Positions 2,291 to 51,356 of a stretch of DNA of 56,416 nucleotides are shown here, piece after piece (the stretch's first letter is position 1; each line of letters opens with the position of its first letter). The stretch spans positions 1 to 56,416 of the forward strand of contig JAQYBD010000053.1 of assembly GCA_029338835.1 (NCBI GenBank), read 5' to 3'. The stretch is from Selenomonadaceae bacterium (lineage in GTDB: Bacteria; Bacillota; Negativicutes; Selenomonadales; Selenomonadaceae). The notes beneath the pieces were generated by a model. It ran no database searches and was not told where the DNA came from. It saw only the letters and a list, made by a program, of their open reading frames with translations. Both the position numbers and the translations under genes were made by a program.

Positions 2291-4933
2291 TCAAACCAAA
2301 TCGATCAGCTTGCGACCCTTGCTCCAGATGCCCTGTCGCTCAATCAGGGCTTCTGCGGGCTGGACGGCAAGCTGATAGTCCTGCTGCAGCAGGCTGAGGA
2401 TTTCCAGCGGCTTGACACTGCCCGCCGGTGTAATGGCGATATCCATGGTCATATCCAGGAAGCCATCGGCCAGGACAGCGGTCACCGGCTTCTTCATGTA
2501 CTGCTTCGTCTCAATATCACGCGTCTTCTTCGGCGTGACACGATGCCAGATAGCTGCAGGTGCCGCATTATAGGCAGCAATAGCCCTTGCTGCTTCTTTC
2601 TCCGTGCCCGCATAGGGAATATGAAGCGTATAGATGGCCTCATCCGCTTCTGACATCAGCGCTTTGTGCCGCCCCTTGATTTCCCGCAACTTCAACAGGC
2701 GTACCCCCGGCGGCAGTTCTGCCTGCAAGCGGTCAAAGATTTCCGGCTGGCAAAGAGGTTTGGTGAGTTCAAAATCCATGTATTCTGAAGCACTCGTCAC
2801 CCCCAGCGAAAGCGCCGAAGCAAACGATACCTTCATATGAGGATTGAATCCTTCCGAATACGCCATCGGCAGTTTTGCTCGGTCAAAAGCGCGCAGGAAG
2901 ATGTTCGCATAATCGAGATGCGAAACGTAACGGAGTTCTTCCCCTTTGGTGATCTCAGCACGCCAGGCAAAGAGCTGACGCTGACGCCCCGGTCCCTTAG
3001 GGTCGCGCATCTCCTGCGCATCCCTGTTCTCCGGAGTGCTGGATGCTTTGTCCTGGACCTTTTCCTCTGCCAGCCGTGCCAGTTCCTGCTTCTGATAATC
3101 GATGACATGAACGCCAAGATTCGGGCAGATGCCGCAAGCACTGCATTTCCCGCGGCGGCAATCCTCTGTCAGGGCAGCCGACATGGCATGATGCCATTCG
3201 CGCAGCAGGAATTCCTGGTTGACGCCCGGTGAGGTGATGAGCCAGGGCAATGGCTCCTGGAAACTGCGCGTACGCAGATTGTAGTACCCCATATCAATAT
3301 CGCATTTCTGGAAGGCCTCATGCCAGATCTCATCCTTGTAATGATCGGACCAGCCATCGAATTTCGCTCCATCCTTCCAGGCCTGATAAAGCACCTTGGC
3401 CAGACGGCGGTCACCGCGCGCAAAGACACCTTCGATGACAGACAGGCGCGCATCGTGATAATTGAACGTGATGGCACGATCCGTAATATGATCCTTCAGC
3501 AACTGCTGACGGCGCTGGAATTCTTCAATGGGCAGCTGGCCGAACCACTGGAATGGCGTGTAGGGCTTCGGCACGAAACAGGCTACGGAAATCGTGACCT
3601 TGCAGCCACGCTTGCCTTTGATTTCCGTGTAAAGATCCACGACCTGCTTGGCAAGCTTGGCAATGCCGATGACATCTTCATCCGTTTCCGTCGGCAAGCC
3701 CATCATGAAATAGAGCTTGACCTGCTTCCAGCCCTGACGGAAAGCAGCACCGCAGGCCTGCATGAGATTTTCTTCCGTAACACCTTTATTGATGACATCG
3801 CGCAGGCGCTGCGTACCAGCCTCCGGCGCAAAAGTAAGGCCGGATTTCCGGACCTGCTGCATCTTGTGTGCCAGTTCAATCGAAAAACTGTCAATGCGCA
3901 AGGAAGGCAGTGAAAAACTGACTTTCTCATCGGCAAAATCCGTCATCAGATCATCGACCAGCCGACCGAGGCAGGAATAGTCTGCAGAAGAAAGCGAAGT
4001 CAGGCTCATCTCATCATAGCCGGTCGCATCAACAAGGCCCCGCGACATCTTGCGCAGATTTTCCTCCGTGCGCTCGCGTGCCGGACGATAGCAGATGCCC
4101 GCCTGGCAGAAGCGGCAGCCGCGCGAACAGCCACGGAAGAGCTCGAGCATGATGCGGTTGTGGACGATATCCATATATGGCACTACGGGATGCTCCACCG
4201 AGATTGCCTCATCCATATCCTTGATCACGCGCTTATAGATTATGGGTTTTGCTTGTTCCGAAAGCGGGCGCATCGCCTGGTAATTCCCCTTGGCATCGTA
4301 AACCGGTTCATAAAAGGAAGGAACATAGATGCCGTCCAGCGAGAGCAGGCGCTGTAAAAAGCCGCGGCGGCCTCCCGGACGCCCTTCTGCCTTCCAGGCC
4401 ATCAGCGCATCCGATACTTCAACGATGACCTCTTCGCCTTCACCGACAATAAAGAAATCAAAGAAATCCGCCACAGGCTCGACATTGTAGACACATGGAC
4501 CGCCACCGACCACGAAGGGCATATCTTCACCACGATCCTTGGCCCAGAGCGAGATTCCCGCCAGATCCAGCATGTTGAGTACGTTGCTGTAAATCATCTC
4601 ATATTGCAGGGAGAATCCCAGGAAATCAAAGGCCGCAATCTCCGTCTTCGTTTCCAGGGAAAAGAGCGGGATATGCCGCTTGCGCATCTCGGACTCCATA
4701 TCGACCCAAGGTGCATAGACACGTTCTGCCGCAATATCCGGGCGGCGGTTCAGGACCTCATAAAGGATGGCCAGGCCGAGATTGCTCATGCCCACTTCGT
4801 AGACATCCGGCAAGGCCAGTGCCCACGTGCAATCCACATCTGCATGATCTTTCCTGACTGCATTCCATTCCCCGCCCGTGTAGCGGGCAGGCTTCAATAC
4901 AGACTGGAGTACTTCATGTTCGAGTCGTACCAT
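2291..4933 (-). CDS. TIGR03960-type B12-binding/radical SAM protein fused to a DUF2344 domain
   Basis: 880 residues. The N-terminal third resembles a B12-binding-like domain (LALPDVYEVGMSNLGLAILYEVLN). The radical SAM core carries the cluster motif C-x3-C-x2-C in CSRGCRFCQAG near residue 270, and MMGLPTETDEDVIGIAKLA is typical of YgiQ/MiaB-like radical SAM enzymes. A Cys-rich linker (CRRGKCSACGICPNLGV) follows, then a C-terminal DUF2344 domain (KGEELRYVSHLDYANIFLRA). This fusion is common in Firmicutes between rodA and rng; its substrate is, to my knowledge, not established, though the rng context hints at RNA or ribosome modification. GGAGG lies 9 bases before the ATG. Confidence 0.9.
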   Translation of the reverse strand: MVRLEHEVLQSVLKPARYTGGEWNAVRKDHADVDCTWALALPDVYEVGMSNLGLAILYEVLNRRPDIAAERVYAPWVDMESEMRKRHIPLFSLETKTEIAAFDFLGFSLQYEMIYSNVLNMLDLAGISLWAKDRGEDMPFVVGGGPCVYNVEPVADFFDFFIVGEGEEVIVEVSDALMAWKAEGRPGGRRGFLQRLLSLDGIYVPSFYEPVYDAKGNYQAMRPLSEQAKPIIYKRVIKDMDEAISVEHPVVPYMDIVHNRIMLELFRGCSRGCRFCQAGICYRPARERTEENLRKMSRGLVDATGYDEMSLTSLSSADYSCLGRLVDDLMTDFADEKVSFSLPSLRIDSFSIELAHKMQQVRKSGLTFAPEAGTQRLRDVINKGVTEENLMQACGAAFRQGWKQVKLYFMMGLPTETDEDVIGIAKLAKQVVDLYTEIKGKRGCKVTISVACFVPKPYTPFQWFGQLPIEEFQRRQQLLKDHITDRAITFNYHDARLSVIEGVFARGDRRLAKVLYQAWKDGAKFDGWSDHYKDEIWHEAFQKCDIDMGYYNLRTRSFQEPLPWLITSPGVNQEFLLREWHHAMSAALTEDCRRGKCSACGICPNLGVHVIDYQKQELARLAEEKVQDKASSTPENRDAQEMRDPKGPGRQRQLFAWRAEITKGEELRYVSHLDYANIFLRAFDRAKLPMAYSEGFNPHMKVSFASALSLGVTSASEYMDFELTKPLCQPEIFDRLQAELPPGVRLLKLREIKGRHKALMSEADEAIYTLHIPYAGTEKEAARAIAAYNAAPAAIWHRVTPKKTRDIETKQYMKKPVTAVLADGFLDMTMDIAITPAGSVKPLEILSLLQQDYQLAVQPAEALIERQGIWSKGRKLIDLV

Positions 4934-51026: not shown

Positions 51027-51056
51027 AAGCTGCCGTCTCCAGACGGCAGCTTTTTT
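51027..51056 (+). terminator. terminator of putP
   Basis: AAGCTGCCGTCT pairs with AGACGGCAGCTT around CC, followed by TTTTTT, 5 bp after the putP stop. Confidence 0.92.
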
Positions 51057-51078: not shown

Positions 51079-51264
51079 AGGGCAGGGCCGGGCAAAAGCG
51101 GAGCGTTGTCGCGCTGCGTGAAGAATTGATTTTTTTCCTGCCAGGCCCCTGCCAAAAGAGCGTCGTTCAAGCAAAGCGCGTTTCGTTCTTTTGGCAGGAT
51201 ACATTGAAAGGAAAAAAATCGATTCAGAAGCCCGACTTCGTGAAGCGTTGCCCGGCCCTGCCCT
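51079..51264. repeat. 186-bp nested inverted-repeat element
   Basis: Three pairs of arms are nested: an outer perfect 17-bp pair (51079-51095 with 51248-51264), a middle 15-base pair with one mismatch (51124-51138 with 51210-51224) and an inner 15-base pair with one mismatch (51148-51162 with 51184-51198), around a 21-base loop. It fills the 243-bp gap between the putP terminator and the next terminator and encodes no plausible protein. It could be a miniature inverted-repeat transposable element, an intergenic repeat unit or a structured RNA. Confidence 0.8.
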
Positions 51265-51299
51265 CTGTTTCTTTAAGAAGGATGCGTATTATGATATAA

Positions 51300-51332
51300 C
51301 AAGATCCGCTGCCCAAGTGACAGCGGATCTTG
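51300..51332 (-). terminator. terminator of permease paralogue 2
   Basis: AAGATCCGCTG pairs with CAGCGGATCTT around a 9-base loop. The minus-strand tail TTGTTATATC is only moderately T-rich. Confidence 0.75.
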
Positions 51333-51356
51333 ACATATATTCACCTGTATGACGGC

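Follow-up and report, generated by a model that had tools for sequence, protein, structure and literature searches.

What is the long palindrome that lies between a gene of an SSF sodium:solute symporter (putP-like, + strand) and a gene of a CitMHS/ArsB-type permease (- strand) in a genome of the genus Mitsuokella? The palindrome occupies 186 nt of the window, i.e., the whole stretch of DNA that was analyzed (56,416 nucleotides), and the genome belongs to Selenomonadaceae, which are common gut, rumen and oral bacteria. The initial annotation considered a miniature mobile element, an intergenic repeat family and a structured RNA. Dispersed relatives, an empty site and composite elements support the first two of these options, and a structured RNA is disfavored. 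We conclude, with a probability of roughly 0.6, that the palindrome is a solo member of a family of non-coding hairpin repeats that is dispersed, probably mobile and kept as a folded single strand.

The whole 186 nt folds into a single hairpin, the RNA folding energy being -106.6 kcal/mol compared to -61.2 kcal/mol for shuffles (z = -10.0). Folding as DNA gave z = -7.2 for the + strand and -7.6 for the - strand, and no shuffle matched the hairpin. The parts of the hairpin and its flanks are as follows.

51079..51264, + (strand of the conserved apical motif): hairpin element, fold z = -10
51079..51095, +: 5' outer arm, helix 1, 17/17 complementary to 51248-51264
51098..51104, +: symmetric internal loop, 5' strand GCGGAGC (GCGNAGC type), read from the sequence
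51123..51139, +: 5' middle arm, T tract, 94% complementary to 51209-51225
51148..51162, +: 5' inner arm, 93% complementary to 51184-51198
51164..51183, +: conserved 20-nt apical motif CGTTCAAGCAAAGCGCGTTT, sole match within the window
51171-51177, +: tip GC-AAA-GC, position of the GNA-type triloop, AAA in the window copy
51184..51198, +: 3' inner arm, pairs with 51148-51162
51209..51225, +: 3' middle arm, A tract, pairs with 51123-51139
51240..51246, +: symmetric internal loop, 3' strand GTGAAGC, read from the sequence
51248..51264, +: 3' outer arm, helix 1, pairs with 51079-51095
51027..51052, +: terminator-like hairpin of the SSF symporter gene, flank outside the element (terminator scan)
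51294..51338, -: 18-bp inverted repeat behind the permease gene, arms 51294-51311 and 51321-51338, flank outside the element

The three nested arm pairs described in the initial annotation are present where it had placed them, and its outer arms (17 bp, perfect) and inner arms (15 bp, one mismatch) were correct; the middle arms, however, are 17 bp long with one mismatch, not 15 bp. The inverted repeat at 51294-51338 is probably the terminator of the permease gene; the terminator scan did not flag it. Because each neighboring gene has its own terminator-like site or inverted repeat, the hairpin is an extra element, as had been proposed, and a terminator of a neighboring gene is ruled out.

When scored with a covariance model of 48 copies (R1), the window copy gave 183 bits (E 7e-40), with model boundaries of 51080-51268. 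The window genome contains one full copy; the second match of both BLAST and the model is the same place on the opposite strand. Counts of 12 and 13 BLAST matches and of 18 and 21 covariance-model matches were obtained for the two sister genomes, which belong to Mitsuokella multacida DSM 20544 and M. jalaludinii DSM 13811. The model was positive in 39 of 101 Selenomonadaceae genomes, many of them with at least 20 matches and many with at least 25 scored candidates, and in 50 of 300 Negativicutes genomes, 48 of these 50 belonging to Selenomonadaceae. Thus, the search of related Selenomonadaceae for dispersed copies that had been suggested in the initial annotation recovered many. That annotation had also regarded a unique and unconserved copy as speaking against its proposal; the full copy is indeed single in its own assembly, but the structure is strongly conserved in relatives. 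Several copies are located at contig ends, so that some contig breaks in these genomes are probably due to the hairpin repeat. Searches of known families gave no name for it: nothing in Rfam came near the gathering score in the window, the sole Rfam match at 12 hairpin loci was a SAM riboswitch and no hairpin was matched, and the literature on palindromic repeats or MITEs of Selenomonas yielded nothing relevant. The family of hairpins of ~185 bases in Mitsuokella, Selenomonas and relatives is uncatalogued, i.e., it is named in no library searched.

The alignment of the 48 copies shows that the folded shape is kept while the letters of the arms change almost freely. Compensatory changes on both sides were found in 51 of 61 predicted pairs and in 14 of 14 modeled pairs of helix 1. 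Of all cells, 94.2% were paired, as opposed to 71.4% after shuffling and 41-48% after sliding the partners, and the number of cells changed on both sides was 661, compared to 191 in shuffles. The unpaired patches are nearly invariant across the copies. The outer internal loop consists of two facing motifs of the GCGNAGC type, in which the facing pairs at columns 22-186 and 27-181 are G-C, G-U or A-U across copies. The tip has the consensus R-C-[RNA]-G-Y (a GNA-type triloop), in which the middle base is free (30 A, 10 C, 6 G and 2 T among the 48 copies) and the stem pair at columns 104-111 covaries (44 G-C and 4 A-T). In the inner helices, G-U pairs outnumber A-C pairs by 82 to 24 with fixed wobbles left out, whereas the outer helix has no such bias (22 versus 18), both sets of counts being inflated by the relatedness of the copies. 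Two wobble positions (columns 49-164 and 99-112) vary little or not at all. The inner-helix excess of G-U indicates that one strand matters, and it would be compatible with RNA as well as with single-stranded DNA.

Five sites were compared as orthologous pairs between M. jalaludinii and M. multacida, whose putP-like gene is 93.8% identical. Two of these pairs were counted, and their arms change in concert: 11 base pairs were changed on both sides and kept, versus 7 changed on one side. In one orthologous hairpin (L005/L007), four adjacent base pairs of one helix are replaced together. Such a change exceeds, in speed and in clustering, what single compensatory mutations would suggest, and it may have arisen by conversion from another copy or by template switching.

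An alternative reading of these data is that the hairpins are a transcribed structured RNA family (a small RNA or an RNA-processing element), multi-copy by chance, and that the covariation reflects selection on RNA. We consider this unlikely. The great strength of the covariation, the conservation of the unpaired patches, and the inner-helix preference for G-U over A-C with its fixed wobbles are in its favor. However, the hairpin strand is random relative to both neighboring genes (27/26/26/24 over the four arrangements, based on simple ORF calls), which makes a transcribed or cis-regulatory RNA less likely and fits a DNA element. Furthermore, the window copy sits between two facing terminator-like hairpins, the element contains a single, weak promoter-like match, no Rfam family was matched, and presence or absence varies at orthologous sites. 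Finally, a GNA loop on a G-C stem is the rule of very stable DNA mini-hairpins d(GCGNAGC), i.e., a DNA stability rule (PMC4686876), and the triloop at the tip thus points to DNA. If our reading is right, the family is a warning to RNA finders that strong covariation need not mean RNA.

The reading of the hairpin as a mobile DNA repeat draws on comparisons of orthologous sites. The symporter-permease gap is 84 and 92 bp in two sister species, with no element, and 340 bp in the window. The outer boundary of the window hairpin is approximate because the sister-species gap, at only 84-92 bp, is not alignable base by base; the letters are too diverged, and direct alignment gave no exact ends. Two independent precise losses in the sisters are less likely than one gain, loss being possible in principle.

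In Selenomonas ruminis mPRGC5 (G098) and S. ruminantium WCT3 (G079), the hairpins form composites of 565-705 bp, with lengths of about 565 or 700 bp; each has an inverted repeat at either end and, between these, hairpin (-), spacer and hairpin (+) in this order. These composites are 90-95% identical at unrelated sites, and AATTRCAGTTTGYRGG inverted repeats bound both ends. One composite, at a site between two facing terminators, has no counterpart at the orthologous position of two congeners. Of 28 close hairpin pairs, 26 are head to head, i.e., (-) then (+), and none is tail to tail. The AATTRCAGTTTGYRGG terminal repeats were not found in the window, and the Mitsuokella copies are also without them; therefore, the evidence that the single hairpin is mobile comes from presence versus absence at one site. 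The analysis recovered neither a transposase or recombinase nor a clear target duplication; TATA or TGTAA are candidate duplications at some sites, with a length that is not constant. A non-exhaustive inspection of the terminal-repeat matches in G098 and G079 showed no autonomous parent with matching ends. The one long hairpin pair, in Centipeda (L058, 1.66 kb apart), was considered as a location of an autonomous parent and rejected, as the intervening genes appear housekeeping-like by eye. A phage or plasmid origin was likewise rejected: the Selenomonas composite was unmatched in phage and plasmid collections, and the apical motif had one match in 2.9 million viral contigs.

Two further features of the composites were observed. 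The long spacer (L202-L209) is likewise a palindrome (CCTTCCCC...GGGGAAGG), and GCGCGAAGCGC within it makes a third hairpin inside the element. The composites L237, L247, L213 and L217 are bordered by AAAAGGGACTGTGA ... TCACAG, as if they were located within another palindrome or terminator.

The composites could also be ordinary MITEs of a DDE insertion sequence, in which only the AATTRCAGTTTGYRGG ends matter, the hairpins are passengers and the Mitsuokella solos are unrelated remnants. The sharp paired terminal repeats and the composite missing at an orthologous site are consistent with this explanation. Compensatory evolution, however, would not be required of passengers, Mitsuokella has abundant hairpins that lack these ends and yet retain the same loops, and the terminal-repeat pairs of the two genomes included no matching autonomous element; accordingly, we regard this explanation as improbable. 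A chance or housekeeping palindrome unique to the gap (a bidirectional terminator or a folding barrier) would agree with the one full copy in the window's own assembly, but is excluded for practical purposes by the covariation, by relatives that share its fixed loop bases in no fewer than 39 of 101 family genomes, and by the separate terminator-like hairpins that flank the window copy.

Comparison to known systems places the family close to several of them. REPIN/BIME elements are intergenic palindromes that consist of two inverse hairpins and a spacer, show compensatory arm changes and strand-specific unpaired features, and occur as singlets that are read as remnants (PMC3116915, PMC8266576). 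The hairpins described here resemble them in being intergenic palindromes, in inverse pairing with a spacer, in compensatory arm changes, in strand-specific unpaired features and in the occurrence of singlets that can be read as remnants; however, they are ~185 nt long, whereas REP hairpins are 20-50 nt, and their composites carry terminal inverted repeats of their own. Among the 30-nt stretches at the hairpin feet of 48 copies, the GTAG tag was present in 1 upstream and 2 downstream (~5 expected by chance), and CGTC was not enriched (6 upstream and 4 downstream). The Y1 transposase family PF01797 is absent in the element-rich genomes G098, G079, G070, G042 and G071; it is present in Mitsuokella and G017. 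Because the GTAG tag is missing and PF01797 is absent in these five genomes, REP/RAYT membership is ruled out despite the REPIN-like build.

Prokaryotic MITEs, such as QMITE of Coxiella, ERIC and BOX/RUP, are non-coding, intergenic elements with terminal inverted repeats and a stable stem-loop (PMC10969869). Our family shares with MITEs the non-coding, intergenic nature, the stable stem-loop, the dispersed copies, the empty sites and, in the Selenomonas composites, the terminal repeats. It differs in the free arm sequence with fixed loops, in the lack of terminal repeats in the window copy, and in that neither a target duplication nor a parent insertion sequence was identified. Integron attC sites are folded single-strand recombination sites of variable sequence with conserved unpaired bases. 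The hairpin family is similar in its variable sequence with conserved unpaired bases, but its copies are dispersed instead of lying in cassette arrays, and the tip is conserved, not the base. No integron integrase scored above the TIGR02249 cut-off in any of ten genomes, and an attC identity is thus ruled out. The resemblance to d(GCGNAGC) DNA mini-hairpins is in the tip R-C-[RNA]-G-Y, with its free middle base and covarying stem (PMC4686876); that motif was a synthetic oligonucleotide, whereas here it is the natural apex of a 185-nt repeat, with AAA in the window copy.

The best reading of the family is a non-autonomous, REPIN/MITE-like mobile repeat, for which we infer the movement itself. 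We propose the following model: (i) the functional unit would be the folded single strand, comprising a free outer arm, the GCGNAGC internal loop, further free arms and the apex, which would be a GNA-type triloop within the fixed 20-nt motif; (ii) an enzyme supplied in trans would recognize the fixed unpaired bases of this folded strand, more likely DNA than RNA, and the arm sequence is free because the arms need only pair; (iii) copies would be inserted between genes, often beside terminators; and (iv) in Selenomonas, two head-to-head hairpins between AATTRCAGTTTGYRGG ends would move as one composite, in the manner of REPINs and MITEs. The window copy, a single hairpin without AATTRCAGTTTGYRGG ends, would then be a solo or derived form, i.e., an independently moving form or a derived remnant. 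If this reading is right, Selenomonadaceae carry an abundant repeat, unnamed in the libraries searched here, that evolves as a structure rather than as a sequence and is found in the absence of the sole transposase known for hairpin repeats of this kind. Under the same reading, the 20-nt apex on the folded strand is a bait for a new enzyme that reads DNA hairpins.

The apical motif also has matches beyond Selenomonadaceae. An exact scan of 84,980 species genomes with the 20-nt apex yielded at least 120 stretches, compared to ~7 expected by chance (an estimate for 18 base-equivalents over 5e11 positions, both strands). Of the 116 matches listed with full context, 110 are enclosed by a fold of 30 or more pairs; for random windows drawn at the same loci, the figure is 31 of 115. 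The listed matches include MAGs of Lachnospiraceae and other Clostridia, of Blautia and of Bacteroidales, whose arms are entirely different; as the scan itself started from the apex, the conservation of this motif across these groups is partly circular, and some matches may stem from MAG contamination. The covariance model scores the Lachnospiraceae hairpins L106, L135, L114 and L052 at E values of 1e-12 to 1e-10. A cross-phylum superfamily of mobile folded DNA, with the apex CGTYCAAGCRNAGCGCGTTT, the GNA triloop and the unpaired patches constant, the arms free, and an enzyme that reads the folded strand and is unrelated to RAYT or the integron integrase, is a tentative idea that we treat as a lead.

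Other repeats were encountered in the same genomes. M. multacida and M. jalaludinii also hold mini-hairpins of ~70 nt with a near-constant 34-nt loop (ATAAGTGGAGCTTCAGCCTGCTGCGCGGAACGTTR) and arms of 17-19 bp that differ between loci and pair almost perfectly. A second model (R2) had 8 and 12 matches in these two species and none in the window genome. The mini-hairpins are located as follows.

L013:1732-1806: mini-hairpin
L016:1799-1873: mini-hairpin
L018:1793-1868: mini-hairpin
L026:1212-1286: mini-hairpin
L014:1333-1407, 2696-2770, 2819-2893 and 2941-3015: four mini-hairpins

A short hairpin, CCAAGAATGCGAGCGTCAGCGAAGCATGATTGG and its variants, seems by eye to be inserted into the large hairpin or to replace part of it, and is perhaps a further repeat family. 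It was seen at three loci.

L144, near 7162: short hairpin of the CCAAGAATGCGAGCGTCAGCGAAGCATGATTGG type
L125, near 645 of the reverse strand: short hairpin of the CCAAGAATGCGAGCGTCAGCGAAGCATGATTGG type
L164, near 728: short hairpin of the CCAAGAATGCGAGCGTCAGCGAAGCATGATTGG type
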